A stretch of 64,000 nt of DNA. Origin: Pseudomonas sp. Teo4 (GTDB taxonomy: Bacteria; Pseudomonadota; Gammaproteobacteria; Pseudomonadales; Pseudomonadaceae). The stretch lies in contig NZ_JAXCIL010000001.1 in NCBI RefSeq assembly GCF_034387475.1, positions 1,674,001 to 1,738,000 on the forward strand, given 5' to 3'. Positions 26,374 through 44,093 of this stretch are shown here, one piece after another. A program made the position numbers and the translations under genes. Below the pieces are notes generated by a model. That model worked only from the letters and a program-made list of their open reading frames with translations. It had not been told where the DNA came from and searched no databases. How positions within the stretch are numbered: position 1 is the first letter of the stretch; each line of letters starts with the position of its first letter.

Positions 26374-26435
26374 ATCGCTCTCCTGTCAGCGTCAACGTGG
26401 CGAGTATGCCGAGGTGCCCGACAAAAATATACCAG

Positions 26436-26482
26436 TTGACACAATTTTAACGGTCGTAATAAATATAACGGTCGTTATAAAT
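26436..26482 (+). promoter_or_regulatory. Efflux promoter with tandem TetR operator
   Basis: A perfect -35 TTGACA (26436-26441) has a candidate -10 AATAAA 16 bases on (26458-26463). Two direct repeats overlap it: aacggtcgtaataaat (26449-26464) and aacggtcgttataaat (26467-26482), 18 bp apart and differing at two bases. The second contains the near-palindrome ATAACGGTCGTTAT. Binding by the divergent TetR protein is inferred from position. Confidence 0.65.
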
Positions 26483-26505
26483 CAACCTGACTGGCTATCG
26501 ACAAC

Positions 26506-27582: not shown

Positions 27583-29149
27583 GTCAGTGCTTACATCAGC
27601 CATGCCGCCCAACGCCAGCCGCGCCGACTGGATCGCCGTCGGCGCCGGCGCCCTTGGCGCATTGATGGCGACGCTGGATATTTCCATCACCAACTCGGCA
27701 TTGCCGCAGATCCAGGGCCAGATTGGCGCCACCGGCAGTGAGGGCACGTGGATTTCCACCGCCTACCTGATGGCTGAGATCGTCATGATCCCGCTCACTG
27801 CCTGGCTGACCCGGGTCTTTGGCCTGCGCACCTTCCTGATCGGCAACGCGCTGCTGTTTGTGCTCTTCTCGATGGTGTGCGGCTTCGCCGACAACCTGAC
27901 CCAGATGATCATCGGTCGCCTGGGCCAGGGGTTTGCGGGGGGCGCGATGATACCCACGGCCCATGTGCTGGTGGCGACGCGGCTGCCACGACACCAGATG
28001 CCCATCGGCATGACGGTGTTCGGCCTTACGGTGTTGCTCGGGCCGCTGTTGGGGCCGGTGATTGGCGGGTGGCTGACCGAAAACATCGACTGGCGCTGGT
28101 GCTTTTTCCTCAACCTGCCGGTATGCGCGGTACTGGTGGTGATGCTGGTAACCGGTCTGCCACCGGCGCGTACGCGGTGGTCACGGTTTTTCAAAGCAGA
28201 CTGGCTGGGCATTGCCGGGCTGACCCTGGCCCTCAGCGCGCTGACCGTGGCACTTGAGGAGGGGCAGCGGGAGCGTTGGTTCGAGTCGTCGCTGATCGTC
28301 GGCTTGAGCGGCGTGACCGTGCTTGGCGCCGTGCTGCTGGGCATCGCCCAGTTCACCGCGAAGGAGCCAGTCGTGCGTTTGCGGTTACTGGCCAACCGGC
28401 ACTTCGCCGCAGTCATCGGTATCGTGTTTCTGGTCGGGGCGGGGCTGTATGGTGTGGCTTACCTGCTGCCGCAGTTTCTTAGCGGGGTGGCGGGTTACAA
28501 CGCTCAGCAGTCCGGCGCGGTCATGCTGATGTCAGGGTTGCCAGCGTTTCTGGTGGTGCCGTTGTTGCCGCGTCTGTTGGCCCGGTATGACGCCAGGCTG
28601 TTGGTGGTGATCGGCATTGCTGCCTTGTCGCTGAGCTGTTACCTGGCCACCGGCATTACGGCACAGAGCGCCGGTCATGACTTCACGCGCTCGCAGTTGC
28701 TGCTGGGGGTAGGGCAGTTGCTGGCGATGATGCCCCTTAACCAGTTGTCGATGAGTTCGGTGCCGCAACAGCAGGCGGGCGACGCCGCCGGGCTTTTCAA
28801 CATGGCGCGCAACCTTGGCGGCTCGGTGGGGCTGGCGCTGTTGGGGACTTTTCTTGACCGGCGCACCGCGACGCATGACGACGTGCTGCGTGAATCGGTG
28901 ACTGCAGCCTCGGCGACGGGGCAAGCGCATATCGCCAGCCTGCAGGAGATGTTCGTCAGCCATCATCTGGACGCCGCAACCGCCCATCTACAGGCCCTGA
29001 CCAGCTTCGCCGAGCAGATTCGCCTGCAGGCCGTGGTCATGACCTATATCGATACCTTCCAGGCGCTGGCACTGACGCTACTGATTTGCATGCCACTGGC
29101 CTTCTTACTACGCAAGGCGCTGCCCGGCGCACCTGTCACAGGACACTGA
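27575..29149 (+). CDS. emrB: EmrB-like MFS drug exporter (DHA2)
   Basis: A 524-residue pump with 14 predicted membrane segments. It shows the DHA2 motif LDISITNSALPQIQGQIG (motif D1-like), motif A near GLRTFLIGNALL, motif B in IIGRLGQGFAGGAMIP and motif C GLTVLLGPLLGPVIGG. Such proteins drive proton-coupled export of hydrophobic toxicants through EmrA and an outer membrane channel. I chose the GTG at 27575, which has GAGG nine bases upstream. An ATG at 27557 (overlap 26 bases with emrA) and one at 27602 are possible. Confidence 0.88.
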   Translation: MAESVLTSAMPPNASRADWIAVGAGALGALMATLDISITNSALPQIQGQIGATGSEGTWISTAYLMAEIVMIPLTAWLTRVFGLRTFLIGNALLFVLFSMVCGFADNLTQMIIGRLGQGFAGGAMIPTAHVLVATRLPRHQMPIGMTVFGLTVLLGPLLGPVIGGWLTENIDWRWCFFLNLPVCAVLVVMLVTGLPPARTRWSRFFKADWLGIAGLTLALSALTVALEEGQRERWFESSLIVGLSGVTVLGAVLLGIAQFTAKEPVVRLRLLANRHFAAVIGIVFLVGAGLYGVAYLLPQFLSGVAGYNAQQSGAVMLMSGLPAFLVVPLLPRLLARYDARLLVVIGIAALSLSCYLATGITAQSAGHDFTRSQLLLGVGQLLAMMPLNQLSMSSVPQQQAGDAAGLFNMARNLGGSVGLALLGTFLDRRTATHDDVLRESVTAASATGQAHIASLQEMFVSHHLDAATAHLQALTSFAEQIRLQAVVMTYIDTFQALALTLLICMPLAFLLRKALPGAPVTGH

Positions 29150-29151
29150 CC

Positions 29152-30555
29152 ATGAACTGCTTTTACGTGCGCACCGCCTTGTTGGCTTGTGCGATTGCCC
29201 AGGCATTGCCAGGCTGCACCGTCGGGCCCGACTACCAAGGGCCGCCTGCGGTCGCCAATGAAGCCGTGCAAGCGGGCCAATTGCGCCGTGCCGAGAGCAT
29301 GACACCCCAGCAACCCGAGCTTGCTCACTGGTGGCTCGCGCTGAACGATACGCAGCTGAACTCGTTGATTGACCTGGCGCTGTCCGCCAGCCCTGACCTG
29401 GACATCGCCCGCGCCCGGGTGCGCCAGGCCTATGCCGGCTTCGAGGGTAAGCGCAGTGACACGCTACCCAAGCTCAACGCCAACGCCGGCGAACTGATTC
29501 GTGGCAGCGACGATGCACCGGTATCGCGCTATTACGTGTCCGGGCTGATGGCGAGCTGGGAGCTGGACCTGTTTGGCGCAGGACGTCGCGCCAGCGAAGG
29601 TGCCGAAGCCAAAGCCCAGGCCAGCGACGCCGATCTTGCCGATGCCCGTCTGCAGTTGACGGCGCAGGTCGCACAGGCCTACCTGGAATTGCGTAGCCGC
29701 CAGTTACGGGCGGCTAAAACCCGTCAGGCGCTGGAGCTGGAGCAGCGCATGTTGCAGCTGAGCGAAGCGCGTTATGGGGCAGGCACCGTCAGTGCTGGTG
29801 ATGTGGAGCGTTTCAGCACGCAGGCACAGCAGACCGAGGCTGGCCTGATTGCGCTGGAGGGGCAGATCGACGAGTCGCTGGATCAACTGGCGTTGTTATG
29901 TGGCCAGGCCCCGGGTAGTTTGGACACTCGTCTGGTGGCTCCGGCGCCCATGCCCCAGGTGCAGTCACCCCCTGCGGTGGGCAGCCCTGCCGATTTGCTG
30001 CGCCAGCGGCCGGACATTCGCGCGGCAGAGCGGCACCTGGCGGCAAGCAACGCGCTGGTCGGCGAAAAACGTGCAGATGCCTTTCCGAAAGTGACGTTGC
30101 TTGGCAGCCTCAGTTTTGCCGGCGACAATGCCGCAGACTTGTGGCACAAGGGCAATCTCGGTTGGCTGGGCGTGCCGTATCTGCAATGGAATCTTCTGGA
30201 CTTTGGTCGGAACCGACACATGGTTGAACAGGCGCAAGCCCAGCACGACGAAGCGCTGGCACAGTACACCTCAAGCGTGCTCAGCGCGCTGCGCGATGCC
30301 AATGTCGCCCTGAGCCGCTTCGGTCACGATCGCCGCCGTGTAGAGGTGCTGCGTCAGGCCGAAGCATCGGCAGTGCGCAGTGCCGAACTCAGCGAGCAGC
30401 GCTATCTGGGCGGCACACGCTCGGCCCTCGACTGGCTGGACGCCGAACGCACCCGCAACGACGCCGAGCAGCAGCGGATCAGCGGCGAGGCGCAGGTGCT
30501 GGCCAGCTACGTGACCTTGCAGAAGAGCCTTGGCCTCGGCTGGCAAAGCGAATAG
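29152..30555 (+). CDS. Outer membrane efflux lipoprotein (NodT/OprM type)
   Basis: A 467-residue lipoprotein. A signal peptide ends in the lipobox ALPGC with the modified Cys22, followed by TVGPDY. The TolC-type repeat is present twice (LINSLIDLAL/ARARVRQAYAGFEGK region and AERHLAASNALVGEKRADAFPKV). It forms the outer membrane duct of the EmrAB-type pump. It starts 2 bp after emrB. The MocR regulator follows 8 bp later and may be read through. Confidence 0.88.
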   Translation: MNCFYVRTALLACAIAQALPGCTVGPDYQGPPAVANEAVQAGQLRRAESMTPQQPELAHWWLALNDTQLNSLIDLALSASPDLDIARARVRQAYAGFEGKRSDTLPKLNANAGELIRGSDDAPVSRYYVSGLMASWELDLFGAGRRASEGAEAKAQASDADLADARLQLTAQVAQAYLELRSRQLRAAKTRQALELEQRMLQLSEARYGAGTVSAGDVERFSTQAQQTEAGLIALEGQIDESLDQLALLCGQAPGSLDTRLVAPAPMPQVQSPPAVGSPADLLRQRPDIRAAERHLAASNALVGEKRADAFPKVTLLGSLSFAGDNAADLWHKGNLGWLGVPYLQWNLLDFGRNRHMVEQAQAQHDEALAQYTSSVLSALRDANVALSRFGHDRRRVEVLRQAEASAVRSAELSEQRYLGGTRSALDWLDAERTRNDAEQQRISGEAQVLASYVTLQKSLGLGWQSE

Positions 30556-30563
30556 GGCCACCC

Positions 30564-32066
30564 ATGCGCAACAGTCGACACGACCTGATGTGGAAGCAGT
30601 TGTTGCCGGAAACCCGGCGCAATGACGACCCGTTGCAAGTGCAGTTAAGTACCGCGTTCGTCAACGCCATTCTCGACGGTCGCCTGCTCGCCGGTAGCCG
30701 CCTGCCGTCCGGGCGCGACCTGGCCCGGCTTACCGGGGTTTCGCGCAACACGGCGGTTCTGGCCTACGAGCGACTGGTCGCCGAAGGCTATGTCGAAGCG
30801 CGGCCAAGGGATGGCTTTTTTGTCTACTCGGCAATCAAACCCACCGACGCGGTGACCGGCCACGGGCCAAGCAGCCAGCAAGGCCCGGACTGGGGAGCGC
30901 GCCTGCCCGGCGCCATATCCCGGGTGCAATGGGCCGACCGGCCGAACATCTGGCGGGATGTGCGTTACCCCTTTGTCTACGGCCAGTTCGACCACCGCCT
31001 GTTCCCCATCCACCAGTGGCGCCAGTGCAGCCGTCAGGCCTTGGAACTACGTGCGGTGGATCGCTGGTGGCAGGAAGGCGAAGACCTGGACTCCACCCAG
31101 TTGATCAGCCAGCTGATTCGACGGGTGTTGCCACGTCGGGGCATCGCCGCCAGCGAGTACGAGGTCTTGCTGACACTGGGCCGGCAGCAGAGCTTCTACC
31201 TGCTGGCGCGCTTGTTTGCTCGCCCAGGCAGCAAGGTGGCAGTCGAGAACCCAGGTTTTCGGGACCCACGCAATGTCTTTGCCTACGAAGGTGCCGACGT
31301 TGTGCCTGTTCCGCTGGACGACGAAGGGCTGGTGCTCAACGAAGCACTGGCGAGCTGTGATTACCTGTATTGCACCCCGGGTTACCAGTGCCCGACGGGC
31401 ATCACCATGAGCGCCGCTCGACGCCGTGACCTGCTGCAGCTGGCGCAGGACCGCGACCTGGTGATTTTCGAAGATGACGACGACCCGGAAACCGAATACG
31501 ACGGCCAGGCGCACTCGGCGCTCAAAGCCTGCGACCAGCACGGACGGGTGATCTACATGAGCAGCCTGTCCAAGCTGCTTTCGCCCGGACTGGGCATCGG
31601 TTTCATCGTCGCCCCAGCGCCAGTAATCGCCGAGCTGCGTTCCCTGCAGCGGCTGATGATCCGGCAGACGCCAGGCAACAACCAGATCGCCACCGCGCTG
31701 TTCATCCAGCAGGGCCACTACGACCGGTTGCTGCAACAGACCCGCGACAGCCTGGCTCATCGAGCGGCGCTATTGGTGCAGGCACTGCGCCAGGAGCTTC
31801 CCGAAGCGCGCTTCACCGTGCCCACCGGCGGTGCCACCTTGTGGCTGCGACTGCCGCACTGTGCCGACTCGCTGACCTTCTATTACGAGGCGCTCGCAGA
31901 AGGGGTGCTGCTCGACCCCAGCATGGCCTTTTATTTCCACCCTGAGGGCGAACAGCATCAGTTCGTTCGTCTGGGGTTCGGCGCCATTGCTGTCGAACGC
32001 ATTGCGCCGGGCGTTCGTGAGCTTGCCAGGATCGTGGCGGAACATGGCCGCCGTCATCGCCTGTGA
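30564..32066 (+). CDS. MocR-type (GntR/aminotransferase-like) regulator with altered PLP motif
   Basis: A 500-residue regulator. The N-terminal GntR winged helix (GSRLPSGRDLARLTGVSRNT, then AVLAYERLVAEGY) is joined to a fold-type I aminotransferase domain. The PLP lysine is Lys337 in MSSLSKLLSPGLGIGF, and Arg in QFVRLGFGAI would bind a substrate carboxylate. The usual E-D-D-Y-D segment reads EDDDD (303-307), so the Tyr that normally contacts PLP is Asp306. It resembles TauR (39636-41132) in overall plan. It probably controls the porin-amidase-MFS genes 258 bp downstream, which carry a 22-bp-spaced direct repeat typical of MocR sites. Confidence 0.87.
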   Translation: MRNSRHDLMWKQLLPETRRNDDPLQVQLSTAFVNAILDGRLLAGSRLPSGRDLARLTGVSRNTAVLAYERLVAEGYVEARPRDGFFVYSAIKPTDAVTGHGPSSQQGPDWGARLPGAISRVQWADRPNIWRDVRYPFVYGQFDHRLFPIHQWRQCSRQALELRAVDRWWQEGEDLDSTQLISQLIRRVLPRRGIAASEYEVLLTLGRQQSFYLLARLFARPGSKVAVENPGFRDPRNVFAYEGADVVPVPLDDEGLVLNEALASCDYLYCTPGYQCPTGITMSAARRRDLLQLAQDRDLVIFEDDDDPETEYDGQAHSALKACDQHGRVIYMSSLSKLLSPGLGIGFIVAPAPVIAELRSLQRLMIRQTPGNNQIATALFIQQGHYDRLLQQTRDSLAHRAALLVQALRQELPEARFTVPTGGATLWLRLPHCADSLTFYYEALAEGVLLDPSMAFYFHPEGEQHQFVRLGFGAIAVERIAPGVRELARIVAEHGRRHRL

Positions 32067-32202: not shown

Positions 32203-32238
32203 GCTGGCACCATCGATAGCTGCCGCTGGCACCATCGA
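32203..32238 (+). promoter_or_regulatory. Tandem MocR-type operator before the porin gene
   Basis: GCTGGCACCATCGA occurs twice, at 32203-32216 and 32225-32238, identical over 14 bases and 22 bp apart (two helix turns). The CTGGCACCAT core also occurs before isfE (39647 downward on the minus strand). No good -10 is seen at the expected position, so the promoter itself is uncertain. Confidence 0.6.
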
Positions 32239-32324
32239 GTGGAGGTAAACCTGCAACGACTCCCCTGACCGGCCGGATCACGAAGCATCCGGTGACGGGC
32301 AAAAACCATAAGAGGAGGGGAGTT

Positions 32325-33632
32325 TTGAAATCGTTACTCGCACCACGTCAATGGTCCACCGGGCTGTTCGCTTTGAGCTTGATCAATTGCGCAGTTGCCG
32401 CCGAGGCACAGAAAACCGCACCCGCCTGCGCAAGCTACGAGAAATCCCTGACCCGGGCAGAGCCAGCCAACCGCTCGGCCCCGATCTGTGCCCGTATCGC
32501 CCCTGAGCTGGGAGGGCTGCGCAAGACGCTGGCCGAGCATGGCCTGGGGCTCACCATTACCTCTTACAACGGCTATGCCTACGATCTTGGCGGCCACAAT
32601 GCCAAGCCACAGGTCTATAACGGCCAGAACCCCAGTTACAACGCCTCGCTGAACCTCTACACCACTTATGACCTGACCCGCCTGGGCTTTGCCAACGACG
32701 CCCAGCTCACCCTCGCCGGGCAACTGGTGCGCTCCACCTACGACCCCGCCAACCCGGAGGTATCGCAGGTCAGCGTGTTTGCCGTGAACCAGTCGTTCTT
32801 CGATAAACAATTGGAGATCGAGTACGGCTACATCGCCGGGGTGAAGCTGTTCTATGGCGTATCTCTTGGCGGTAATGCTTCAACTGCGGCATTGGGCCCA
32901 AGCAGCGTGGTGCCTTTCCAGGTGGGCATGTCGGCGACCGTGCCGACCCCGACCTTCAACGTCATCACCCGGGACAAGTCGCTACGTTGGTACAACAGCG
33001 CCGCGCTGACCCGCAGCGTCAGCCCGCAAGGCATTCTGGAAGACGTCAATCGCAACCCCAACGGCCTGCACTGGAAGGTCGACGGCGCCAATCCGATGCT
33101 GATCGACGAATTCGGTTACAAGCGCGAGGCTTCGGCCAACGAGCATGCGGTGTGGTCGCGCTTTGGCATGATGTACAACACCAGCCACTACACCGAGTTC
33201 AAGACCGGCGAGGAATCGGACAACAACTGGGGCCTGTACTTCGCCGACACCCACCAGTTCACCAAACCCTACGGCGATGCGCGCGGCTGGTACTTCGACA
33301 CCAAGCTGGATTACTCGCCCGCGTCGGTGAATGCCATCAACAAGGCCTTCCAGTTCAGTGCATTCAACATGGGGCCGTTTGCCAGCCGGCCTTTCGACAT
33401 GCTCTCGGTGGGCTTCAGCAAGAGCTACTTCAGCAAGGACCTGCGTGAGGTCTACGACAATTACCGCATGGACAACGCCCCCTACACCATGGCGGTAACA
33501 GGCTCTTACGCGGCGCGGCTCAGCCCCGGCATCTACCTGGTCAACGGCCTGACCTGGACCAAGAACCCGGTGTTTTCCCCGGAACACCCTGACGCGCTGT
33601 TGCTGCAGACCTCACTGAACCTGCTGTTCTGA
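32325..33632 (+). CDS. Carbohydrate-type outer membrane porin (OprB-like)
   Basis: A 435-residue beta-barrel. I place the start at the TTG at 32325, because AGGAGGGG (32314-32320) precedes it and the protein then opens with a clean signal peptide, MKSLLAPRQWSTGLFALSLI to NCAVAAEA. The upstream GTG would disrupt this. The barrel strands alternate aromatic residues and end in LLLQTSLNLLF, a terminal Phe as required for BAM insertion. It starts the porin-amidase-MFS set. OprB-like proteins pass neutral sugars, but similar porins accompany many uptake operons, so the cargo is open. Confidence 0.75.
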   Translation: MKSLLAPRQWSTGLFALSLINCAVAAEAQKTAPACASYEKSLTRAEPANRSAPICARIAPELGGLRKTLAEHGLGLTITSYNGYAYDLGGHNAKPQVYNGQNPSYNASLNLYTTYDLTRLGFANDAQLTLAGQLVRSTYDPANPEVSQVSVFAVNQSFFDKQLEIEYGYIAGVKLFYGVSLGGNASTAALGPSSVVPFQVGMSATVPTPTFNVITRDKSLRWYNSAALTRSVSPQGILEDVNRNPNGLHWKVDGANPMLIDEFGYKREASANEHAVWSRFGMMYNTSHYTEFKTGEESDNNWGLYFADTHQFTKPYGDARGWYFDTKLDYSPASVNAINKAFQFSAFNMGPFASRPFDMLSVGFSKSYFSKDLREVYDNYRMDNAPYTMAVTGSYAARLSPGIYLVNGLTWTKNPVFSPEHPDALLLQTSLNLLF

Positions 33633-33699
33633 CCCTTTTCCTATCGTCCCCTGTGGCCGCCTGTGCCTTGGCGGGCAGGGCCATGCCTGTGAGCTTGCG

Positions 33700-35187
33700 A
33701 TGAACCATACAATGAAAAGCACCTCGACCCACGCCATGCTGGATGCCATGGCCAGCGACGATTACCTGGAACTCGACGCCACCGAAATGGCGCGCCGGGT
33801 ACGTGATGAAGGGCTGGCGCCAGGCGCCTTGCTGGGCGCCGCACTGGAGCGCTGCGCGCACGTCAACGACACGGTCAACGCGTTGGTGCTGGACCACTCG
33901 GAGCATGCCATCGAGCGGTTGATGGCACGGGCCGAGTCGGGCACTAGCCGTGAGGGCGCGCTGGCTGGCGTGCCGATGCTACTCAAGGACCTCAACACTT
34001 ACCTGACTGGCACCCGCACCACCAACGGTTCGCGCTTGCTTGCACAGGCGCCTGTGGCCGAACACAGCAGCACCGTCACCCAGCGCTACGAGCAGGCCGG
34101 CATGCTGATTTTTGGCAAGACGGCCAGCCCGGAATTCGGTTTGACCACCACCACCGAATCGGCGCAGTGGGGGGCCACCCGCAACCCTTGGAACCTTGCC
34201 TACAGCGCTGGAGGGTCGTCCGGTGGCGCCGCCGCGGCGGTAGCGGCGGGCATCGTGCCTGCTGCCCACGCCACCGACGGCGGTGGCTCGATCCGCATTC
34301 CGGCGTCGTACTGCGGGGTGTTCGGCCTCAAGCCCACACGCTATCGAACCCCGCAGGGGCCAAGCAGTTACGAAGGCTGGTTCGGCGCCAGTTGCGGTCA
34401 TGTGGTGTCGCGCAGTGTGCGTGACTCGGCGCTACTGCTCGATATCAGCCATGGTCACGAGCCGGGCAGCCCTTACTGGCTGGCGCCGCTGCAGGGAAGT
34501 TTTGTCGAGCAAATGAACCGTGACCCAGAGCGTTTGCGCATTGGCCTGATCAGCCGTGGCATGACCGGGGTCGCACTGGACCCGGACGTGCAGCGTGTAC
34601 TCGATGAAACCGTGGCGCTTTTGTGCAACCTGGGGCACGAGGTTGAGCTGGTCGACCTGCCGATCGACGCCGGCCAGGTGTTCAGCGCCCATGGCGCGGT
34701 GACCTCGACCACGCTGTTGACCGCCGTCAAGGACCGTGAAGCCGCCATGGGCTGCAGCATGGAAGAAGAGCATTTGGAGCCGATCAGCCGTTTTCTGCTG
34801 GCCAACGCCCGCAACACCACGGCGGAAACCTTGTTCCGTGCCCGGCGCGCCTTCGAGAGCATCGGCCAGCAAATGGAGCTGATGCTCAGCCGCTACGACC
34901 TGTTACTGTCGCCGGTCACCGCCAGCCTGACGCCGAAGCTGGAGCTGCTCAGCCTGCAGAATAGCTACGAAGACTACACCCGCGAGATCGTCGGCAGCGT
35001 GGCCTACACCGTGTTGGCCAATGTCAGCGGGCAGCCCTCGATGTCGGTGCCATCGGGCCTTGGTCGCGAGCGTTTGCCGATCGGCATGATGTTCACCGCC
35101 GGGCGTTGCCGTGAAGGGTTGCTGCTGAGCCTGGCACGGCAATTGGAACAAAGCCGACCTTGGGCGCATTTGCGCGCGCCGTTGTAA
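33700..35187 (+). CDS. Amidase-signature family hydrolase
   Basis: A 495-residue serine amidase. The Ser-cisSer-Lys triad is visible: Lys96 in [10 protein letters not shown], cis-Ser173 in [11 protein letters not shown] and nucleophile Ser197 in [21 protein letters not shown]. Length and the wide glycine-rich loop fit amidases of the 6-aminohexanoate-cyclic-dimer/aryl amide type. It has no signal peptide, so it acts in the cytosol. Downstream lies an MFS carrier, and the porin upstream would supply outer membrane entry. The shared operator motif with the taurine genes suggests an amide of taurine as a substrate, but this is inference only. Confidence 0.88.
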
Positions 35188-35257
35188 ACCCGTGAGGGCG
35201 TCGTCCGTGAAGGGCGGCGCCCGCCGCTTGAGCCCGATCATTTGCGAGATTGCACCG

Positions 35258-36580
35258 ATGAATACGCCACTCGGACCGTTGCGCCGACACTACACGTTGT
35301 TCCTGTTGTTCGTGGTATCCGCTGTAAGCCTGATCGACCGCCAGATCATGGGCGTGGTGATCGAGCCGATCAAACAGGAGTTCAATGCCACCGACACGCA
35401 GATGGGCCTGCTCACCGGGCTGGCCTTCGCCGTCGTCTACTGCCTGTTTTCCCTTGGCATGGGACGCTATGCCGATCGCAATAACCGACGCAACCTGATC
35501 AGCGCCTGCTGCGCGGTGTGGAGTTTCATGACCCTGCTGTGTGGCATGGCCACGGGCTTCTGGACCCTTGCGCTGGCTCGCTTGGGCGTGGCGGTGGGCG
35601 AGTCTGGTAGCGGCGCGGCGTCGATGTCGGTGATTGCCGACCTCTACCGCCCAGCCCAGCGGCCCAAGGCAATCAGCGTGTTCATGCTGGCGCCGCCGAT
35701 TGGCACTCTGTTGGGGCTAAGTGTTGGCGCCTGGATCACTTACTACCATGGCTGGCGCGAGGCTTTCATCTGGATGGCGGTACCTGGATTGGTGGCGGCG
35801 CTTCTGCTGCGCCTTACCGGTAGCGAGCCTTTGCGCGGCCACTGGGAGGCCATGCGCGGCACCGCGCACGAGGGCCAGGGTGAAAGTGCTTGGCGGGTGA
35901 TCCTTGACGCTTGCCGTAATGGCCCCTACCTGAGCATCGTCGTGGCCGGTGCCTTGCTGGCGTTCGCCGGTTACGCCTTTGGTATCTGGAGTTCGGCGTT
36001 TCTGGTGCGCAGCCACGGCCTGTCGATCAAGGATGCTGGCGCGATCATGGGGCTGGCGGCCGGGCCTGGCGCGATCATTGGTTCGCTGTCCAGCGGCTGG
36101 CTGACCGCTCACCTGGCCCGTCGCGACGTGCGTTGGCAATTGGGCATTCCGATCATCGGTGCCTTGCTCGCCATGCCGTTGGCCATTGCCTCCGTGCTAT
36201 TTCCGGCAACCGACCCCTGGACCCTTGGCAGCCTTGTGGTGCCAAGGGCCACACCGTTCATTTTCGGTATGTCGGTGTTCGGCATGTGGTGGATGGCGCC
36301 CAGCTACACCGCCGTGGCGCAGATGGTTGCGCCGGGCCGGCGTGCCACACTGATCGCCTTTTTCAACTTCGGCATCATGGCCCTGGGGGCTGGTCTGGGG
36401 CCTTTGGTTACCGGCATGCTCAGCGATGCCTTGACCCCAAGCCTGGGTAGCGACGCGCTGCGCTGGGCGCTGGTGGCAAGCACCGGGGCCTATGCACTGG
36501 CAGCTTTGTTGCTGATGCGCACGCTGGGAGGGTATGCCCGCAGTTCCCAGGCACAGATGACGCAGGCGTTGGCCGGGTAG
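35258..36580 (+). CDS. MFS transporter, anion/spinster-like
   Basis: A 440-residue, 12-helix carrier. It has an early LIDRQIMGVVIEPIKQEFNATDTQMG loop, motif A in LFSLGMGRYADRNNRRN, and a characteristic RLGVAVGESGSGAASMSVIADLYRPAQRPKA segment in the first half. These are typical of the spinster/anion:cation symporter branch that takes up organic acids and conjugates. Start ATG 35258 is preceded by GAGATTG. It lies 70 bp after the amidase, so it is probably its partner importer. A hairpin terminator shared with tpa follows the stop. Confidence 0.82.
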   Translation: MNTPLGPLRRHYTLFLLFVVSAVSLIDRQIMGVVIEPIKQEFNATDTQMGLLTGLAFAVVYCLFSLGMGRYADRNNRRNLISACCAVWSFMTLLCGMATGFWTLALARLGVAVGESGSGAASMSVIADLYRPAQRPKAISVFMLAPPIGTLLGLSVGAWITYYHGWREAFIWMAVPGLVAALLLRLTGSEPLRGHWEAMRGTAHEGQGESAWRVILDACRNGPYLSIVVAGALLAFAGYAFGIWSSAFLVRSHGLSIKDAGAIMGLAAGPGAIIGSLSSGWLTAHLARRDVRWQLGIPIIGALLAMPLAIASVLFPATDPWTLGSLVVPRATPFIFGMSVFGMWWMAPSYTAVAQMVAPGRRATLIAFFNFGIMALGAGLGPLVTGMLSDALTPSLGSDALRWALVASTGAYALAALLLMRTLGGYARSSQAQMTQALAG

Positions 36581-36594
36581 AGGTAAAAAGAGAT

Positions 36595-36615
36595 TTGGGC
36601 CGCTTTGCGGCCCAA
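36595..36615 (-). terminator. Terminator of the tpa operon
   Basis: TTGGGCCGC (36595-36603), loop TTT, and GCGGCCCAA (36607-36615) form a perfect 9-bp stem. On the minus strand it is followed by AATCTCTTTTT, so it terminates tpa; on the plus strand no T-tract follows. Confidence 0.8.
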
Positions 36616-36626
36616 TGACACCGAGC

Positions 36627-37997
36627 TCAGGCGCTCTTGCCCACTTGCTCCAGCGCTGTATCCAGCGTGGCAAGCATTTCATCTGCCTCGGCTTTACCCA
36701 GGGTCAATGCCGGGCTCAGGCACAGAGTGTTGTTGAAGTTGGCAAACGAGCGGTTGGTGCGGCTGATGATCAGCCCCCGGGCCATGCACGCCGCGGCAAC
36801 CTGCATGGCGACTTTCTCGTTGACCGGCTCGCGGGTCTCGCGGTCGGCGACCAGTTCCAGTCCCAGGAACAGCCCCTTGCCACGCACATCGCCAATCAGC
36901 GGGTGCTTTTCTTTCAGCGCCAACAAGCCGGCCATGAGGTATTCGCCCATGTGTGCGGCGTTCTCCAGCAGGCCTTCCTGTTCGATGATGCGCAGGTTCT
37001 CCAGTGCCGCCGCCGGCCCTGCGGTGCAGCCACCGAAGGTGCTGATATCGCGGAAGTAGGCCGCACGGTCATCGCTTTCACCCCGGAACAGCTCGAACAC
37101 CGCCTCGGTGGTGACGGTGCAGGAGATGGCGGCGTAGCCCGAGGCGACGCCTTTGGCCATGGTCACGATATCCGGTTGGATACCGTAATGCTGGTAGGCA
37201 AACCAGGTGCCGGTGCGGCCCAGGCCGCAGACCACTTCGTCGATGTGCAGGAGGATGTCGTACTTGCGGCACAGTGCCTGTACCGCCTGGAAGTAACCGG
37301 CAGGGGGCGGAATTACACCGCCGCCTGCGGTGATTGGCTCCAGCACCAGGGCGCCGATAGTCTCGGGGCCTTCGCGCAGGATCACGGTTTCAATGGCCTG
37401 GGCAGCCAGTTCGCCGTAGTTGTCCACCTCGCCAAACTGGCTGCGGTATTCGCAGCAGTGGGGCACTTCGACGAAGCCTGGGGTGAACGGGCCGTACTGC
37501 ATGCGCCGCTCTTCCTGGCCAGTGGAGCTGAGGCAAGTGATGGTGGTGCCGTGGTAGTCGCGCTCGCGGTAGAGGATCTTGGTCTTCTGCCCGCCATATT
37601 TGCGGTGGGCGATCTGGCGCACCATTTTGTAGGCTTTTTCGTTGGCTTCGGAGCCGGAGTTGGAGAAGTAAACGCGGCTCATGCCCGGCATCTTGGCGAT
37701 CAGGGCTTCGGCGAAACGCGCTGCCACTGGCGTGCCGGCGGTGCCGGCGAAGTAGTTGAGCTGTACCAGTTGGTCGCGCACCGCATCGGCGATGGCCTGC
37801 CGACCATAGCCGACATTCACGCACCAGACGCCACCGGACGTGGCATCGAGGTAGCGGCGGCCTTGGGCATCCCATACGTGCAGGCCTTCACCGCGCACCA
37901 TCATCGGTGGCGCGGCAGTGTCGAAGTTCTGGTGCTGGGTAAGGTGGTGCCAGACATGCTGGCGGTCGAGTTCCTGCAGGGAGGCGAATTCGGTCAT
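36627..37997 (-). CDS. tpa: Tpa: taurine-pyruvate aminotransferase (class III)
   Basis: A 456-residue PLP enzyme. Asp253 in LLHIDEVVCGLGRTG holds the PLP ring nitrogen, and Lys282 in TMAKGVASGYA forms the Schiff base. The stretches QHVWHHLTQHQNFDT, GGVWCVNVGYGR, PGMSRVYFSNSGSEANEKA and RERDYHGTTIT, with MQYGPFTPGFVEVPHC, match bacterial taurine:pyruvate aminotransferases. It would convert taurine and pyruvate to sulfoacetaldehyde and alanine. The isfD, isfE and tauR genes lie upstream on the same strand, and TauABC is nearby, which supports this. Other omega-amino acids are possible side substrates. Confidence 0.85.
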   Translation of the reverse strand: MTEFASLQELDRQHVWHHLTQHQNFDTAAPPMMVRGEGLHVWDAQGRRYLDATSGGVWCVNVGYGRQAIADAVRDQLVQLNYFAGTAGTPVAARFAEALIAKMPGMSRVYFSNSGSEANEKAYKMVRQIAHRKYGGQKTKILYRERDYHGTTITCLSSTGQEERRMQYGPFTPGFVEVPHCCEYRSQFGEVDNYGELAAQAIETVILREGPETIGALVLEPITAGGGVIPPPAGYFQAVQALCRKYDILLHIDEVVCGLGRTGTWFAYQHYGIQPDIVTMAKGVASGYAAISCTVTTEAVFELFRGESDDRAAYFRDISTFGGCTAGPAAALENLRIIEQEGLLENAAHMGEYLMAGLLALKEKHPLIGDVRGKGLFLGLELVADRETREPVNEKVAMQVAAACMARGLIISRTNRSFANFNNTLCLSPALTLGKAEADEMLATLDTALEQVGKSA

Positions 37998-38031
37998 TGA
38001 CGGGCTTCCTTGGTGGGGTAGGTGGGGCTAT

Positions 38032-39562
<1,531 letters not shown>

Positions 39563-39615
39563 GGGCGACTCCAGTGGGCGGTTGCCGCCACTCTAGTCGT
39601 GCGCCCGAAACGTCC

Positions 39616-39647
39616 CTAGGTCCAGATCGCCTTGGTCATGGTGCCAG
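39616..39647 (-). promoter_or_regulatory. TauR-type direct-repeat operator before isfE
   Basis: On the minus strand CTGGCACCAT begins at 39647 and CTGGACCTAG at 39625, 22 bp apart. The second matches the CTGGACYTAA box I recall for TauR of Rhodobacter capsulatus. TAGAGT, a possible -10, lies 30 bases after the second repeat, the same offset as at tauA. The upstream copy overlaps the last codons of tauR, where base choice is also protein-constrained. Confidence 0.65.
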
Positions 39648-41132
39648 TTGCAAGCGGCGCATTTCCTCCCAGGCCGCACCCAGGGCGGCGATTCCCGGCT
39701 CGATCTGCGCCTCGTTGATGGCGCCGTAGCCGAGGCGGAAGAAGCGCGTTGGCGGTTGCGGGCCGAGGAAGTGGATGTCGCCCGGTTCGATCAGCACACC
39801 ACGTTTGGCCGCCAGCCGCTGCAGTTGCCAGGCGTTGAAATCGGCAGGGCCTTCGACCCACAGCGCCGAACCGCCGGCCAGGCCGCTGGTCTGGCAGTCC
39901 GGCAAGTGTTCGGCCAGCGCACGACTGATGCGTTTCCACTTGCGCGACAGGCTCTCGCGCAGGCGGGCCAGGTGCGCGTCGTAATGCCCCATGGCCAGAA
40001 ACAGCGCCAGCATGCGCTGGTTGTTGGCCGGCGGGTGGCGGTACTGGTAGCGGCGCAGCGCACGCAGTTCGTGAATCAGCTCGGGGGCGGCGACGATGAA
40101 GCCAAGACGGATTCCGGGCAGCAGGCCCTTGGTCAGGCTACCCAGATAGATGACGCGACCGCTGTCATCGAAGCTCTTTAGTGCCGGGTGATTGCCGCCG
40201 AGGTGATTGTGCTCGCTGTCATAGTCGTCTTCGATGACCAGCAGGTCCTGCTGACGCGCCTGCTCCAGCAGGGCCATGCGCCGATACACGGGCATGGTCA
40301 CGCCGGTGGGCGACTGATGGCTGGGGGTGCAGAAGATCATCTCGCAGCCTTGCAATTGCTCGTCCACCACCAGCCCCTGACGGTCGATACGCAGCGGGCG
40401 AAGCGTGCAGCCGGCCAGTTGCAGGATGTTGCGGGCATCGACATAGCCTGGGTCCTCAAGCCCGACCACTTGCCCTGGCCGCCCCAGCAAGCAGCTGAGC
40501 ATGTACAGCGAGCTTTGCGTTCCGACAGTGATGAGAATTTCCCCTTCGCTGGCCTTGATGCCCCGTCGGGGCAGTACGCGCTGGAGGATCTGCTCCACCA
40601 GCAGGGGGTCGTCCATCATCACCTGGTCGTCGACCCAACTGCGCATGTGTGCGCCGCTGGCTGCAATTCGCCCGCAGTCGCGCCAGCGGGAGGCGGTTTG
40701 TTCGTCGTGCTCGACCTGGCCGTAGATGAAGGGGTAGCGGTAGTCACGCCAGTTACGTGGTTTGACAATCGCCTTGAGCGCGGAAGGTTGCTGTTGCAGC
40801 CGAGTTGCCCAGTCTGGTGCGTGTTCCGGGCGTTCGACATGCCCGTGTGCGCGCGAAGAAAGGCTGACATTGAGCTGCTGACGGAGGAATTTTTCGTTGA
40901 TGAAATAGCCGCGGCGGTCGGACGGGATCAGGAAGCTGTCCTGCACCAGATTGTCGTAGACCAACACCACGGTGTTGCGCGACACCTTCAACAGCTTGCT
41001 CAGCGCGCGGGAGGAGGGGAGTGCATCACCGGGCGGCAAGGCACCGTCGAGGATCGCTTGCAGCAGGTTTTCCCGAAGTTGCTCCTGCAGGCTTCGGCCA
41101 CTGACGAAAGGGCGGAAATAGCGTTCCAGCAT
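39636..41132 (-). CDS. tauR: TauR: MocR-type activator of taurine genes
   Basis: A 498-residue MocR regulator. The winged helix (ALSKLLKVSRNTVVLVYDNL) precedes an aminotransferase-like effector domain with the standard EDDYDSE set at 301-307, Lys335 in GSLTKGLLPGIRLGF and the carboxylate Arg in FFRLGYGAI. TauR relatives bind PLP and taurine and activate tpa. Position upstream of isfE-isfD-tpa and divergent from tauABC, and the CTGG direct repeats at both promoters, support this. The start ATG at 41132 faces the tauA promoter across 196 bp. Confidence 0.85.
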   Translation of the reverse strand: MLERYFRPFVSGRSLQEQLRENLLQAILDGALPPGDALPSSRALSKLLKVSRNTVVLVYDNLVQDSFLIPSDRRGYFINEKFLRQQLNVSLSSRAHGHVERPEHAPDWATRLQQQPSALKAIVKPRNWRDYRYPFIYGQVEHDEQTASRWRDCGRIAASGAHMRSWVDDQVMMDDPLLVEQILQRVLPRRGIKASEGEILITVGTQSSLYMLSCLLGRPGQVVGLEDPGYVDARNILQLAGCTLRPLRIDRQGLVVDEQLQGCEMIFCTPSHQSPTGVTMPVYRRMALLEQARQQDLLVIEDDYDSEHNHLGGNHPALKSFDDSGRVIYLGSLTKGLLPGIRLGFIVAAPELIHELRALRRYQYRHPPANNQRMLALFLAMGHYDAHLARLRESLSRKWKRISRALAEHLPDCQTSGLAGGSALWVEGPADFNAWQLQRLAAKRGVLIEPGDIHFLGPQPPTRFFRLGYGAINEAQIEPGIAALGAAWEEMRRLQLAP

Positions 41133-41232
41133 AGGGCAGGGTCCATGGTCGTTGCACTAATGGGGAGCGGCGGCGAACACCAGAAAAGCTTCCGTCACCA
41201 TGGCGGTGCGCACGCGCGCTGCCATGGCGGAA

Positions 41233-41290
41233 CTGGCTCTACGCTTCCCGCTGTCTGGATCTAAAGCAAGGTCCGGGCCGGCACTAAGAT
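41233..41290 (+). promoter_or_regulatory. TauR-type operator and promoter of tauABC
   Basis: CTGGCTCTAC (41233-41242) and CTGGATCTAA (41255-41264) are direct repeats 22 bp apart. TAAGAT (41285-41290) lies 30 bases after the start of the second repeat and would serve as -10, so the activator would overlap the -35 region. The layout equals that at isfE. Confidence 0.7.
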
Positions 41291-41328: not shown

Positions 41329-42333
41329 ATGCTGAAGAACCTGCACCGTTTGTTGTTGGCGCCTGCCGTGGTCTTGTCATTGGGGCTGTCCGCCGCAGCC
41401 CACGCGGAAACCGTCACCATCGGCATACAGAGCATGTATGCCCCATGGAAGAACGCGATTGCCGAGCAGGCATTCGAGAAGGCCACCGGCTGGGATATCC
41501 AGTGGCGCAATTTCGACAGCGGCGGTGATGTGATGATGGCCATGGCGTCTGGCGACGTGCAGATCGGGGTGGCCGGCAGCAGCCCGATTGCCTCGGCGGT
41601 CAGCCGTGGCGTTGGCATCGAGGTGTTCTGGGTGCTCGACAACATCGCCAACGCCGAAGCGCTGGTGGTGCGCAACGGCAGCGGCATCAACGCGCCGCAG
41701 GACCTGGCCGGCAAGACGCTGGCGGTTCCCTTCGTTTCCACCACCCACTTCCATACGCTGTTTGCCCTGGAGCAGTTCGGCCTGGTCGGCAAGGTCAAGG
41801 TCATCAACCTGCAACCTTCAGACATTCCCGCCGCCTGGGAACGTGGCGACATCGACGCAGCGTTCATCTGGGACCCGGCGCTAGGCAAGCTCAAGCAAAG
41901 CGGCAAGGTGCTGATCAGTTCCGGCACCCTCAGCAGCTGGGGCAAGGCGACCTTCGAAGCACTGGTGGCAGACAAGAACTTTGCCGCCAAACATGCCGAC
42001 GGCATGGCCGCGTTTACCAAAGTACTGCAAAGCAGCACTGCCGATTACGTGAAAGCCCCTGAAACCTGGGATGCAGCCTCGCCGAAGGTTGCCAACGTCG
42101 CACGCATTTCCGGCGGCAAGCCCGAAGAAGTGCCGTCGGTGCTCGCGCTTTACGAGTTTCCGCTAGCCGCCGACCAGGCCAGCCCCACGTGGCTTGGCGG
42201 CGGCAAGGATGGCGGTGCGGCCAAGGCCTTGGCGGCCACCGCCGAATTCCTCAAGGCACAAAAGAAAGTCCCGGCAGTGCTGCCTGACTACAGCGTTGCC
42301 ATCAATGCAAGCTTCGTCGACGCGGCGAAGTGA
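41329..42333 (+). CDS. tauA: TauA-like taurine-binding periplasmic protein
   Basis: A 334-residue solute-binding protein. The signal peptide MLKNLHRLLLAPAVVLSLGL ends in AAHAETVTIG. The SsuA/TauA-type core shows WRNFDSGGDVMMAMASGDVQIGVAGSSP and ALEQFGLVGKVKVINLQPSDIPAAWERGDIDAAFIWDPALGKL, the region that cradles taurine's sulfonate. GGAG lies 8 bases before the ATG. The ATPase and permease follow, with a hairpin in the 54-bp gap. Confidence 0.9.
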   Translation: MLKNLHRLLLAPAVVLSLGLSAAAHAETVTIGIQSMYAPWKNAIAEQAFEKATGWDIQWRNFDSGGDVMMAMASGDVQIGVAGSSPIASAVSRGVGIEVFWVLDNIANAEALVVRNGSGINAPQDLAGKTLAVPFVSTTHFHTLFALEQFGLVGKVKVINLQPSDIPAAWERGDIDAAFIWDPALGKLKQSGKVLISSGTLSSWGKATFEALVADKNFAAKHADGMAAFTKVLQSSTADYVKAPETWDAASPKVANVARISGGKPEEVPSVLALYEFPLAADQASPTWLGGGKDGGAAKALAATAEFLKAQKKVPAVLPDYSVAINASFVDAAK

Positions 42334-42387: not shown

Positions 42388-43227
42388 ATGAGCCATAACC
42401 TGAAAATTCATGATGTGTCCGTGGTCTACCCAAGCCAGCAGGGCGGCCAACCGGTTACAGCGTTGTCCGGCGTCAACCTGACTATCGAACGCGGCGATTT
42501 CGTCATGGCCCTGGGGGCTTCCGGTTGCGGCAAGACCACCTTGTTGAACCTGATGGCGGGGTTCATCCGTCCGAGCAGCGGTGTCCTGACCTTGGGCGAG
42601 TATCACGGCCAGGTACCTCAGCAGATCGAGCCTGGCGCTCAGTTGCGCGACCAGATTACCGGGCCCGGCGCCGAGCGAGGTGTCGTATTCCAAAAGCACG
42701 CCCTGATGCCCTGGCTCAACGTGATCGACAACGTTGCTCTGGGCCTGAAGTTTCGTGGCGTTGGCCAGCGGGAGCGGGAGGAGAGGGCGATGCACTTTCT
42801 GCAGCTGACCGGCCTGGCGGATTTTCGCAACCATGCCATCTATCAACTGTCGGGCGGTATGCAACAGCGTGTTGGTATCGCCCGGGCGCTGACCAACGAC
42901 CCGCACATGCTGCTGCTCGACGAGCCGCTCGGCGCGCTGGATGCTCTGACGCGCGAACGTCTGCAGGAGCTGCTGCTGGATATCTGGCAGAGCACCGGCA
43001 AGATGATGTTCTTCATTACGCATGACGTTGAGGAAGCGCTGTTCCTGGGCACGCGCCTGATCATCATGTCGCCACGCCCTGGGCGGATCACCCATGAATT
43101 CAAGCTGGACTTCGGCCGACGTTTCCTGGAATGCCGTGATGCGCGACAGGTTAAATCCATGCCTGATTTCATCGCACTGCGTGAGCAGGTGCTGGGCATC
43201 ATCCACGGCGAAGAGGAAGCGGCATGA
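42388..43227 (+). CDS. tauB: TauB-like ABC transporter ATPase
   Basis: A 279-residue ATPase. Walker A is [12 protein letters not shown], the signature [14 protein letters not shown], Walker [13 protein letters not shown], and the switch His in [12 protein letters not shown]. An ~18-residue insert between Walker A and the Q-loop ([18 protein letters not shown]) is typical of the TauB branch. Its stop overlaps tauC by four bases (ATGA). Confidence 0.92.
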
Positions 43228-44093
43228 GCCAGTTCAACATGAATCAGCACAAGGCCGTTCAACGCACCTTGCAAGCGTTGCGGCGCGGACAATCGGCCAA
43301 ACCGGGCGAACAGTATGGCGCGCCGGGCAATGGTTCGAGCCTCGCGCTCAGTTGCCTGACGGTGGCGGCGTTCATCGCACTGTGGTTTGCCGCCACCAAC
43401 CTGGGTTGGGTCAAGCCGTTGTTCTTGCCGAGCCCACAAGCAGTATGGGACCAGCTGGTCGCAGTGTCGCAGGACGGCTTTGCCGACGCGTCGCTGGCGA
43501 CCCATATCGGCTGGAGTGCGCTCAGGGTATTCAGCGCTTTCGCGCTGGCAGTGGTAACGGCGATTCCGCTGGGTATCCTGATGGGGGTTAATCGGGTAGC
43601 GCGGGGTATCTTCGACCCGTTGGTGGAGTTCTACCGGCCGCTGCCGCCGCTGGCGTATCTGCCACTGGTGGTGATATGGATGGGCATTGGCGAAGGTTCA
43701 AAGGTGCTGCTGATCTACCTGGCGATGTTTGCACCGTTGGCGCTCAGTGCCAGAGCAGGGGTACGCTCGGTGGCCATCGAACAGATCCATGCCGCGTATT
43801 CGATGGGAGCCAGCCGGGGCCAGGTGTTGCGGCATGTGATCATGCCAGCGGCGCTACCCGAGATGCTCACCGGCATGCGCATCGCAATTGGTTTCGGTTG
43901 GACGACCCTGGTGGCCGCTGAAATGGTTGCGGCCACGGCGGGGCTGGGGTTCATGGTGCTCAGCGCGTCCAAGTTCATGGTCACAGAGGTGGTGATCATG
44001 GGTATTCTGGTGATTGGCTTGATGGCGTTGCTGTTCGACTTTGGCATGCGCTGGCTGGAGCGCAGACTAGTGCCTTGGAAAGGCCGGGTGTGA
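43224..44093 (+). CDS. tauC: TauC-like ABC transporter permease
   Basis: A 289-residue permease with about six helices. The EAA loop that docks with TauB is visible ([20 protein letters not shown] then [12 protein letters not shown]), and the N-terminus is cytosolic and basic. It is typical of the sulfonate/taurine/nitrate permease family. It is coupled to tauB through the ATGA overlap. The operon ends here, with AT-rich DNA after the stop. Confidence 0.92.

Follow-up and report, generated by a model that had tools for sequence, protein, structure and literature searches.

Paired TauR-type operators at three promoters of a Pseudomonas taurine locus and a linked porin-amidase-MFS operon

Described taurine systems and the genes of the window

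The arrangement closest to the locus described here is the TauR regulon known from Proteobacteria such as Rhodobacter and Sinorhizobium, in which a MocR regulator is divergent from tauA and is accompanied by CTGGACYTAA-like repeats, as is also the case here. Two further systems bear on this locus: N-acetyltaurine degradation, whose enzyme NaaS we take to be an amidohydrolase of the COG1574 type, and the taurine-nitrogen, isethionate-excreting pathway of IsfD and TauK. The direct repeats of R. capsulatus TauR are given as CTGGACYTAA in passages of PMC5320631, citing Wiethaus 2008; the same passages assign tauABC, tpa and an amino-acid ABC transporter to the gammaproteobacterial TauR regulon, with no porin-amidase-MFS operon among them, and COG1574/COG523 genes to the TauR regulons of Comamonadaceae. 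The S. meliloti promoter PtauA requires TauR, according to excerpts of PMC4254191. In NaaS/NaaT N-acetyltaurine degradation (Ruegeria pomeroyi, excerpts of PMC4334477; Cupriavidus necator, going by a cited title) a taurine-freeing hydrolase feeds the taurine pathway; for R. pomeroyi, NaaS is described there with a LysR gene and genes of an ABC transporter as its neighbours, whereas the present locus has an amidase-signature enzyme with a porin and an MFS transporter. Assimilation of taurine nitrogen with isethionate excretion is reported in the abstract of PMC6616044. Bsa, a bile-salt amidase of Sphingobium Chol11, cleaves taurocholate (excerpts of PMC8399759) and is likened here by description only. 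In P. fragi on beef, taurine transport genes shift with biofilm stage, and the porin-amidase-MFS operon goes unmentioned in the excerpts of that report (PMC7921472). As far as titles, abstract openings and passages go, no taurine-amidase link in Pseudomonas was found in the literature.

The window is the whole 64,000-nucleotide stretch of Pseudomonas sp. Teo4 DNA that was analysed. Its relevant genes are:

30564..32066, + strand: MocR1, regulator with a GntR wHTH and an aminotransferase-like domain
32325..33632, + strand: OprB-family porin; TTG start (inferred) with AGGAGGGGAG ribosome site before it
33700..35187, + strand: amidase-signature hydrolase, aligned with nylon-dimer hydrolase 3a2p to assign the triad K96/S173/S197
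35258..36580, + strand: MFS transporter
36627..37997, - strand: class III aminotransferase, from its position a candidate taurine aminotransferase
38032..38790, - strand: SDR, candidate sulfoacetaldehyde reductase IsfD (6ixj, E 7.4e-97)
38825..39562, - strand: TauE/SafE-family exporter, candidate IsfE
39636..41132, - strand: TauR-like MocR regulator (PF00392 and PF00155), divergent from tauA
41329..42333, + strand: TauA, taurine-binding protein (TIGR01729 above cut-off)
42388..43227, + strand: TauB, ABC ATPase (name assigned from position; relatives have the orthologue next to tauA)
43224..44093, + strand: TauC, ABC permease (name likewise from position, with the orthologue next to tauA in relatives)

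The window shares with the IsfD/TauK pathway an SDR that matches 6ixj, a TauE-family exporter and an aminotransferase, and differs in that its genes lie under TauR-type operators. The best PDB match of the SDR is 2nwq, a probable short-chain dehydrogenase (E 2.2e-143), ahead of sulfoacetaldehyde reductase 6ixj. The aminotransferase is only 31-33% identical to that in the islands of seven of the eight relatives.

Operator pairs and their conservation

The sites identified in the window are:

32204..32235, + strand: porin-operon operator, CTGGCACCAT-N12-CTGGCACCAT, 22 bp between starts; a variant, "type B"
32239..32242, + strand: weak third box GTGG, 13 bp past the start of porin-operon box 2
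39616..39647, - strand: tauE/isfE operator, CTGGCACCAT-N12-CTGGACCTAG
39590..39595, - strand: -10-like TAGAGT of tauE/isfE, at offset 30 from the first base of box 2
41233..41264, + strand: tauA operator, CTGGCTCTAC-N12-CTGGATCTAA
41285..41290, + strand: -10-like TAAGAT of tauA, at offset 30 from the first base of box 2

A first-pass annotation of this DNA had noticed CTGG pairs at three promoters, with starts 22 bp apart and in the orientation of the genes, and a -10-like hexamer 30 bases after the second copy at tauA and isfE. These paired repeats are real. Direct reading places the porin boxes (CTGGCACCAT) at 32204 and 32226 (+), the tauE/isfE boxes at 39647 (CTGGCACCAT) and 39625 (CTGGACCTAG) (-), and the tauA boxes at 41233 (CTGGCTCTAC) and 41255 (CTGGATCTAA) (+), with TAAGAT and TAGAGT in the expected places; the porin pair begins one base later than the 32203 given earlier. 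Box 1 of the tauE/isfE operator overlaps the end of the tauR gene. Box 2 of tauA (CTGGATCTAA) and of tauE (CTGGACCTAG) fit the CTGGACYTAA type of direct repeat, and the likeness to a TauR box proposed earlier is correct (passages of PMC5320631). The porin site departs from the TauR-operator type with a TCTAA-type box 2 and a -10 at +30/31: its box 2 (CTGGCACCAT) has CCAT in place of TCTAA, a third TGG follows at +13, and no -10 was found in register in the window, +30 reading ACGACT and +31 CGACTC. Since the three sites are of the published TauR operator type, the operator switch itself is already known (passages of PMC5320631); what is new is its target operon, MocR1-porin-amidase-MFS.

In GC-rich DNA, CTGG repeats such as these pairs could in principle arise by chance or from coding sequence, and the window does contain 12 copies of the bare pair CTGG-N18-CTGG where 4.1 are expected (0 of 100 shuffles reached 12). 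Because it is so common there, the bare pair is no proof and was dropped as evidence. The extended pattern CTGGCNCYA-N13-CTGGNNCYA, in contrast, has three matches in the whole 6.5-Mb assembly (96.2% complete), exactly the three promoters, and its reversed control has none in the same assembly. The pattern was composed after inspection of the window's and the relatives' sites, and the informative part is therefore that the genome holds no further matches. Another pattern, CTGG-N18-CTGGNNCTA, was rejected as too loose genome-wide (5 matches against 4 for its reversed control) and missed the porin site. Of 398 genomes of the genus, nine have a TauR orthologue; the extended pattern matches 3-4 times in each of these, with 32 of 32 matches inside taurine islands. 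At least three matches were found in 9/9 of these genomes and in 1/389 of the others, the sole exception (G210) having four copies of one sequence; the 389 genomes together hold 48 matches (0.12 per genome) against 70 for the reversed control. With the extended motif restricted to these promoters and conserved in relatives together with the -10 register (below), an origin by chance is extremely improbable.

A 32-base matrix was trained on 26 TauR-type sites of relatives, leaving out the window and the porin-type sites and merging identical sites of type A (defined below). With this matrix the window's sites rank 20th, 25th and 26th of 813,482 positions. Scores of at least 12.7 were obtained at 28 positions, all of them taurine-island promoter sites, and the next position scores 6.0. 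Twenty of the 28 were training sites; the other eight are the window's three, four porin-type sites and one tauA site of a relative (L120:5258) that the seed pattern had missed and the matrix scan recovered. The relatives' porin-type sites score from 3.7 (L074) to 24.0, equivalent to ranks 22nd to 30th in the scanned set. A 44-base TauR-type matrix places the window's sites 19th, 23rd and 28th.

Loss of the pairs in relatives would have counted against the first-pass proposal; orthologous promoters instead retain them. Of the eight other genomes with TauR, all keep the tauA site and seven keep the tauE site, the relatives being of a single genus and not independent of each other; in G256 a tauE-type site was seen, and the fetched stretch stops before the end of the gene. 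The pair before the porin is kept in 11 of 12 fetched porin-operon loci (L070-L074 and L118-L124), of which L121 and L124 repeat G292 and G196, leaving 10 loci, 9 with the site. A porin-alignment scan of genome contigs gave 7 loci. Spacing is 22 bp at all three window sites and in the relatives, whose box consensus is CTGGatCTAA. All 28 TauR-type sites of the relatives have TANNNT at +30 (18 sites) or +31 (10), and none has it elsewhere between offsets 24 and 39. The 11 porin sites of relatives have CCAT in box 2, like the window, and a third box, CTGG, in the place of the window's GTGG (11/11); nine have TA at +31 (TACTAA, TACTAC or TATTCC), and in none is TANNNT found there. Among eight plasmid loci of TauR-like genes, five have the 22-bp spacing and two a 23-bp spacing (Rhizobium AB2/73, A. 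johnsonii); the pair was not seen in the remaining one (R. pomeroyi megaplasmid). The 22-bp pair also occurs in tauR-side gaps of S. meliloti, C. sphaeroides, P. ferrooxidans and Aminobacter, those of S. meliloti and Aminobacter being tauR-tauA gaps.

The porin-amidase-MFS operon and its candidate regulators

The protein encoded at 39636-41132 combines a GntR wHTH with an aminotransferase-like domain beside taurine genes, as expected of a TauR regulator. It is about 40% identical to its hits in S. meliloti and C. sphaeroides and forms no single supported clade with them in the tree. In each of nine genomes, the only match of MocR1 at E<=1e-80 besides itself is TauR; the tree, with support of 75/85 and long branches, gives no firm placement of the two relative to each other. 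MocR1 adjoins tauC in G244 and P. nabeulensis. Since the porin site is a variant, its candidate binder may be MocR1 (30564-32066), TauR or both.

The hydrolase is an amidase-signature enzyme (PF01425, E 8e-89; AlphaFold model, pLDDT 89) with K96, S173 and S197 invariant in 62 sequences, following the Lys-Ser-Ser triad numbering of NylA. As a PF01425 protein it is not of the COG1574 type, and it is set apart from NaaS by description. Orthologues at 65% identity or more were found in 6/398 genomes, all six with TauR (hypergeometric 1.6e-11, kinship ignored); none was found on plasmids at E 1e-100, and a single-query search of genome contigs gave 16 stretches, none confirmed as a relative. Seventeen positions, including R383 versus Q, separate eight taurine-linked amidases from six paralogues, a difference from which we draw no conclusion on the substrate. 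Relatives of the porin (43-46%) occur in three genomes (G081, G086 and G134), none with a TauR orthologue.

MocR1-porin-amidase-MFS lies near tauABC in 5/8 other TauR genomes. The first-pass annotation had tied the operon to the taurine regulon, adding that no annotation would show it. This proposal is supported overall: the 22-bp pair and the neighbourhood in relatives favour the tie, and that the porin site is a variant with no -10 in register weighs against it. The link of the operon to taurine is thus visible in the gene order of relatives as well as in the operator.

Proposed regulation and alternative explanations

We propose that each of the three repeats serves as an operator for a PLP-dependent activator of the MocR type. 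A head-to-tail dimer would occupy both direct boxes, whose starts are separated by two turns of the helix (22 bp). Because box 2 would run into the -35 position, RNA polymerase could, when taurine is present, be recruited to the -10 element that follows at an offset of 30-31 bases. TauR would be the acting protein at tauABC and at tauE-isfD-aminotransferase, and porin-amidase-MFS would be a further member of this regulatory group, controlled by MocR1, by TauR or by both proteins. A taurine amide (N-acetyltaurine, another N-acyltaurine or a bile-salt conjugate) may be imported by the porin and the MFS transporter, and the amidase would free taurine from it; the aminotransferase would take its nitrogen, and sulfoacetaldehyde would be reduced to isethionate and exported. 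Judged from sequence comparisons, the operon's content and linkage suggest import and cleavage of an amide of taurine, releasing taurine from larger molecules. The COG1574/COG523 genes in TauR regulons of Comamonadaceae, of the same type as NaaS, are in keeping with this. We lean somewhat towards the joint reading of MocR-type operators at all three promoters and an operon that imports and cleaves a taurine amide.

MocR1 alone might instead bind the porin site and sense another ligand, with the operon outside the taurine response and the boxes alike because both proteins are MocR regulators. Porin-type sites do have their own second box and third TGG, and MocR1 adjoins the operon in all 11 fetched loci with the site. 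P. fluorescens PS910, where the operon stands behind an AraC-type gene, has neither MocR1 (1e-80) nor an operator site, though it lacks TauR (1e-100) too; the operon can thus serve a cell without this regulator. Paroceanicella carries a gene with 53% identity to TauR whose strong site (score 29.7) precedes ABC-transporter genes, beside a tyramine oxidase gene, in an 11.5-kb stretch with no taurine annotation, and so a TauR-type box alone is no proof of a taurine role. Other observations speak against control by MocR1 alone. The taurine island of G304 includes a porin-type site, but the genome gave no MocR1 match at E 1e-80; the TauR-type matrix recovers the porin site of the window without ranking any false hit higher in the scanned set; and the operon co-occurs and is linked with taurine genes. 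Such exclusive control appears unlikely to us.

The amidase might also act on non-taurine amides, of beta-alanine or other amino acids, its linkage reflecting shared regulator ancestry or niche. Its nearest solved structure is the nylon-dimer hydrolase NylA, a likeness that carries no information on taurine; PS910 retains the operon without TauR; and a second amidase (56-59%) is present in all six operon-bearing genomes of the 398, either at a distance from the island or carried by a different contig. The linkage to tauABC nevertheless persists despite gene order differing between the window and its relatives, and one operator type serves all these promoters. We hold a non-taurine substrate to be possible, if doubtful.

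A wider extension of the taurine-amide reading is quite unlikely as a whole and is offered as speculation: TauR and the divergent MocR1 would share a graded operator code, in which type A has TCTAA and a -10 at +30/31 and type B has CCAT and an additional, third TGG; this code would place taurine-releasing scavenger modules under taurine control. Such modules would be the amidase-porin-MFS operon here and, for taurocyamine, the guanidino-acid hydrolase operon of G304; conjugated taurine would then supply the cells with nitrogen, and isethionate would be excreted. Several such Pseudomonas are isolates from meat or milk.

The joint reading gives operon genes with mere family names (porin, amidase, MFS) a testable function and named candidate regulators. 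The fixed geometry, with boxes 22 bp apart and a -10 at +30/31, helps in calling TauR-type promoters from sequence, and TauR and MocR1 form a regulator pair for asking how MocR proteins discriminate related boxes. If the reading is true, a regulon known for free taurine would gain an amide-cleaving step from another enzyme family.

Probable operators ahead of porin, tauE and tauA

Direct reading confirmed the three CTGG direct repeats of the first-pass annotation, with starts 22 bp apart and each oriented toward its own gene:

32204-32235, + strand: porin operator, CTGG direct repeat ahead of the porin gene
39616-39647, - strand: tauE/isfE operator, CTGG direct repeat ahead of tauE/isfE
41233-41264, + strand: tauA operator, CTGG direct repeat ahead of tauA

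The -10-like hexamers placed 30 bases from the start of the second box (+30) were likewise found, TAGAGT at tauE and TAAGAT at tauA; no hexamer resembling TANNNT occurs at +30 or +31 of the window's porin site, which reads CGACTC at +31. Among 28 TauR-type sites (second box TCTAA) of relatives, TANNNT lies at +30 in 18, at +31 in 10 and at no other offset within 24-39, and in 9 of the 11 relatives' loci with a porin site TA occupies +31 (TACTAA, TACTAC or TATTCC). Judging from the -10 offset, a -35 hexamer would start near +7, inside the end of box 2, a position that would be consistent with an activator replacing the -35 element. In one relative's locus (L071:19122-19187), the region from a divergent aminotransferase gene (AptA-like by search) to the tauE side holds two TauR-type sites arranged back to back with 2 bp between them, and similar places in L070 and L072-L074 show this arrangement too.

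The bare 22-bp CTGG pair is not telling, since 12 occur in the window against 4.1 expected. An extended motif, CTGGCNCYA-N13-CTGGNNCYA, was composed after inspection of the window's sites and those of relatives' taurine islands, with the reversed pattern as control. The genome-wide scan proposed with the annotation found three matches in the Teo4 assembly (96.2% complete), exactly these three promoters, and none for the control. Across 398 Pseudomonas genomes there were 80 matches, spread over 51 genomes. Thirty-two of these, 3-4 per genome and all inside taurine islands by coordinates, belong to the nine genomes (Teo4 included) with an orthologue of the MocR regulator TauR (at least 74% identity; next-best matches 46-49%), in which the control gave 4. 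The other 389 genomes gave 48 matches in 42 genomes against 70 for the control, so that the motif is at background level there; only G210 exceeded two, with 4 copies of one sequence.

Because the motif was designed post hoc, a matrix was used as a further test. Its training set consisted of 26 distinct relatives' sites of TauR type, to which neither the window nor any porin-type site (second box CCAT and a third TGG) contributed, and it was run over 813,482 positions (the window and 20 loci). Every one of the top 28 positions (score at least 12.7), 20 training sites and 8 others, is a taurine-island promoter site; the eight include all three window sites (tauA, tauE and porin, at ranks 20, 25 and 26), and the next position drops to 6.0. 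Relatives' porin-type sites score below most TauR-type sites (3.7 for L074:11579), which marks them as a distinct variant.

Distribution of the porin operon

The window encodes consecutively a second MocR regulator (MocR1), an OprB-family porin, an amidase-signature hydrolase and an MFS transporter, and this set of four recurs in the taurine islands of five of the eight other TauR genomes (G292, G256, G244, G344 and G196). It is absent from the islands retrieved for G392, G304 and G235, genomes in which nothing but TauR matches MocR1 at E 1e-80. A porin scan yielded seven loci with named sources, P. bubulae, P. fragi, P. nabeulensis, P. helleri, P. sp. PB120 (its operon cut off by a contig end), P. 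fluorescens PS910 and P. paraversuta, making 12 with the five islands; P. helleri and P. paraversuta duplicate G292 and G196.

Comparison of orthologous promoters, on which the proposed sharing of the repeat was to be judged, bore it out. The 22-bp pair precedes the porin gene in 11 of the 12 loci, mostly as CTGGCCCTATCGATAG-N6-YTGGCCCCAT, and each of the 11 carries a further CTGG 13 bp past the box 2 start; box 2 starts TTGG in L074, L119, L120, L122 and L124. In the twelfth, PS910, an AraC-type gene and no 22-bp site precede porin-amidase-MFS, and the genome has no match to TauR at E 1e-100 or to MocR1 at E 1e-80. An amidase orthologue (at least 65% identity) occurs in 6 of the 398 genomes, all with TauR, a count that ignores kinship. 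Elsewhere on the Teo4 chromosome, a second amidase (56%) lies near an MFS gene (45%) in a region (L078:1310-6850) with no match to the strict motif.

MocR1 adjoins tauC in two loci, touching it in P. nabeulensis and lying 133 bp away in G244; the distance is 1.1 kb in G196 and 4.7-5.0 kb in six other loci. In L071, the one of these six that was read, the gap holds the same efflux cassette as precedes MocR1 in the window:

25684-30555: TetR/CecR-like gene divergent from an HlyD-MFS-OEP efflux cassette, the last gene of which ends 8 bp before MocR1

The interval is too short for this cassette in L072 and L120. Linkage of the operon to the taurine genes outlasts these rearrangements. The window's aminotransferase (36627-37997) seems to have been swapped, since it is closer (71-72% identity) to enzymes adjoining a different MocR (47-48% identical to TauR) in G242, G060, G208 and G015 than to its counterpart in seven of the eight relatives' islands (31-33%).

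Candidate binders of the porin site

Either MocR1 or TauR may bind the porin site, and both may act there. MocR1 is suggested by its gene, which neighbours the operon, and by the distinct box 2 of porin-type sites; TauR is suggested by the TauR-type matrix, which picks up the window's porin site, and by G304, where a porin-type site (box 2 CTGGCACCAC, TTGG at +13) occurs without MocR1. In each of the nine genomes, among 25-43 first-look candidates, TauR alone besides MocR1 itself matches MocR1 at E 1e-80 (40-43% identity), as again in four named genomes; a tree left the relation of the two unsettled.

The G304 site (L076:14818-16834, in the taurine island) lies ahead of a guanidino-acid-hydrolase-like gene and an amino-acid ABC transporter. 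The ureohydrolase-like product matches 3-guanidinopropionase 3nip at E 3.6e-137, and hydrolysis of taurocyamine to taurine is a guess at its function, beside which a paper on human AGMAT is noted (PMC9772407).

Known operators and proposed function

The operator itself is of an already known kind. Passages of PMC5320631 give CTGGACYTAA direct repeats as the R. capsulatus TauR binding sequence (citing Wiethaus 2008) and discuss MocR dimers arranged head-to-tail over direct repeats with a spacing of two or three turns, and an excerpt of PMC4254191 describes S. meliloti PtauA as TauR- and taurine-dependent. Eight plasmid TauR-like genes were examined, hand-picked among 60 listed of 155 records. 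The upstream gaps of five (Paroceanicella, S. meliloti, C. sphaeroides, P. ferrooxidans and Aminobacter) contain a pair spaced at 22 bp and those of two (Rhizobium AB2/73 and A. johnsonii) a pair spaced at 23 bp, and none was seen in that of the R. pomeroyi megaplasmid gene. The Paroceanicella site (L125:4951-4982; second box GTGG) is strongly TauR-type (matrix score 29.7) and lies beside a gene that shares 53% identity with TauR, with ABC-transporter and tyramine oxidase genes as neighbours and no taurine genes annotated in the 11.5-kb stretch. Box type alone is thus no proof of taurine, and the same box perhaps serves another amine there. Weaker CTGG pairs (L087:10197 and G042:C25:119824) near TauR paralogues of 47-48% identity are perhaps operators of that group.

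The window's neighbouring genes (TauABC, a class III aminotransferase, an SDR and a TauE-family exporter) plausibly form a taurine nitrogen route; the SDR matches sulfoacetaldehyde reductase 6ixj at 7e-97, and 2nwq, an SDR of unstated function, better. Within a taurine group, the simplest role for an amidase accompanied by its own porin and MFS transporter would be to free taurine from an amide. This function is offered tentatively, and both the amidase's nearest solved relative, a nylon-dimer hydrolase, and PS910, which retains the operon without TauR, weigh on it. Precedents appear in the parts consulted of papers on NaaS, an N-acetyltaurine amidohydrolase (PMC4334477), and on a bile-salt amidase cleaving taurocholate (PMC8399759). 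NaaS belongs to an enzyme family other than that of the window's amidase-signature enzyme; TauR regulons of Comamonadaceae include COG1574 and COG523 genes, according to PMC5320631 in excerpt.

The explanation as a whole, MocR-type operators with a porin operon in the taurine group that would release taurine from an amide, is somewhat favoured, slightly less so because the strong Paroceanicella site stands outside annotated taurine genes. Neither this operon as a taurine-group member nor the two operator variants were found in the parts of the literature consulted, and both are new as far as that literature goes. The regulatory link that ties the porin operon to the operator group of the taurine genes is very probable.
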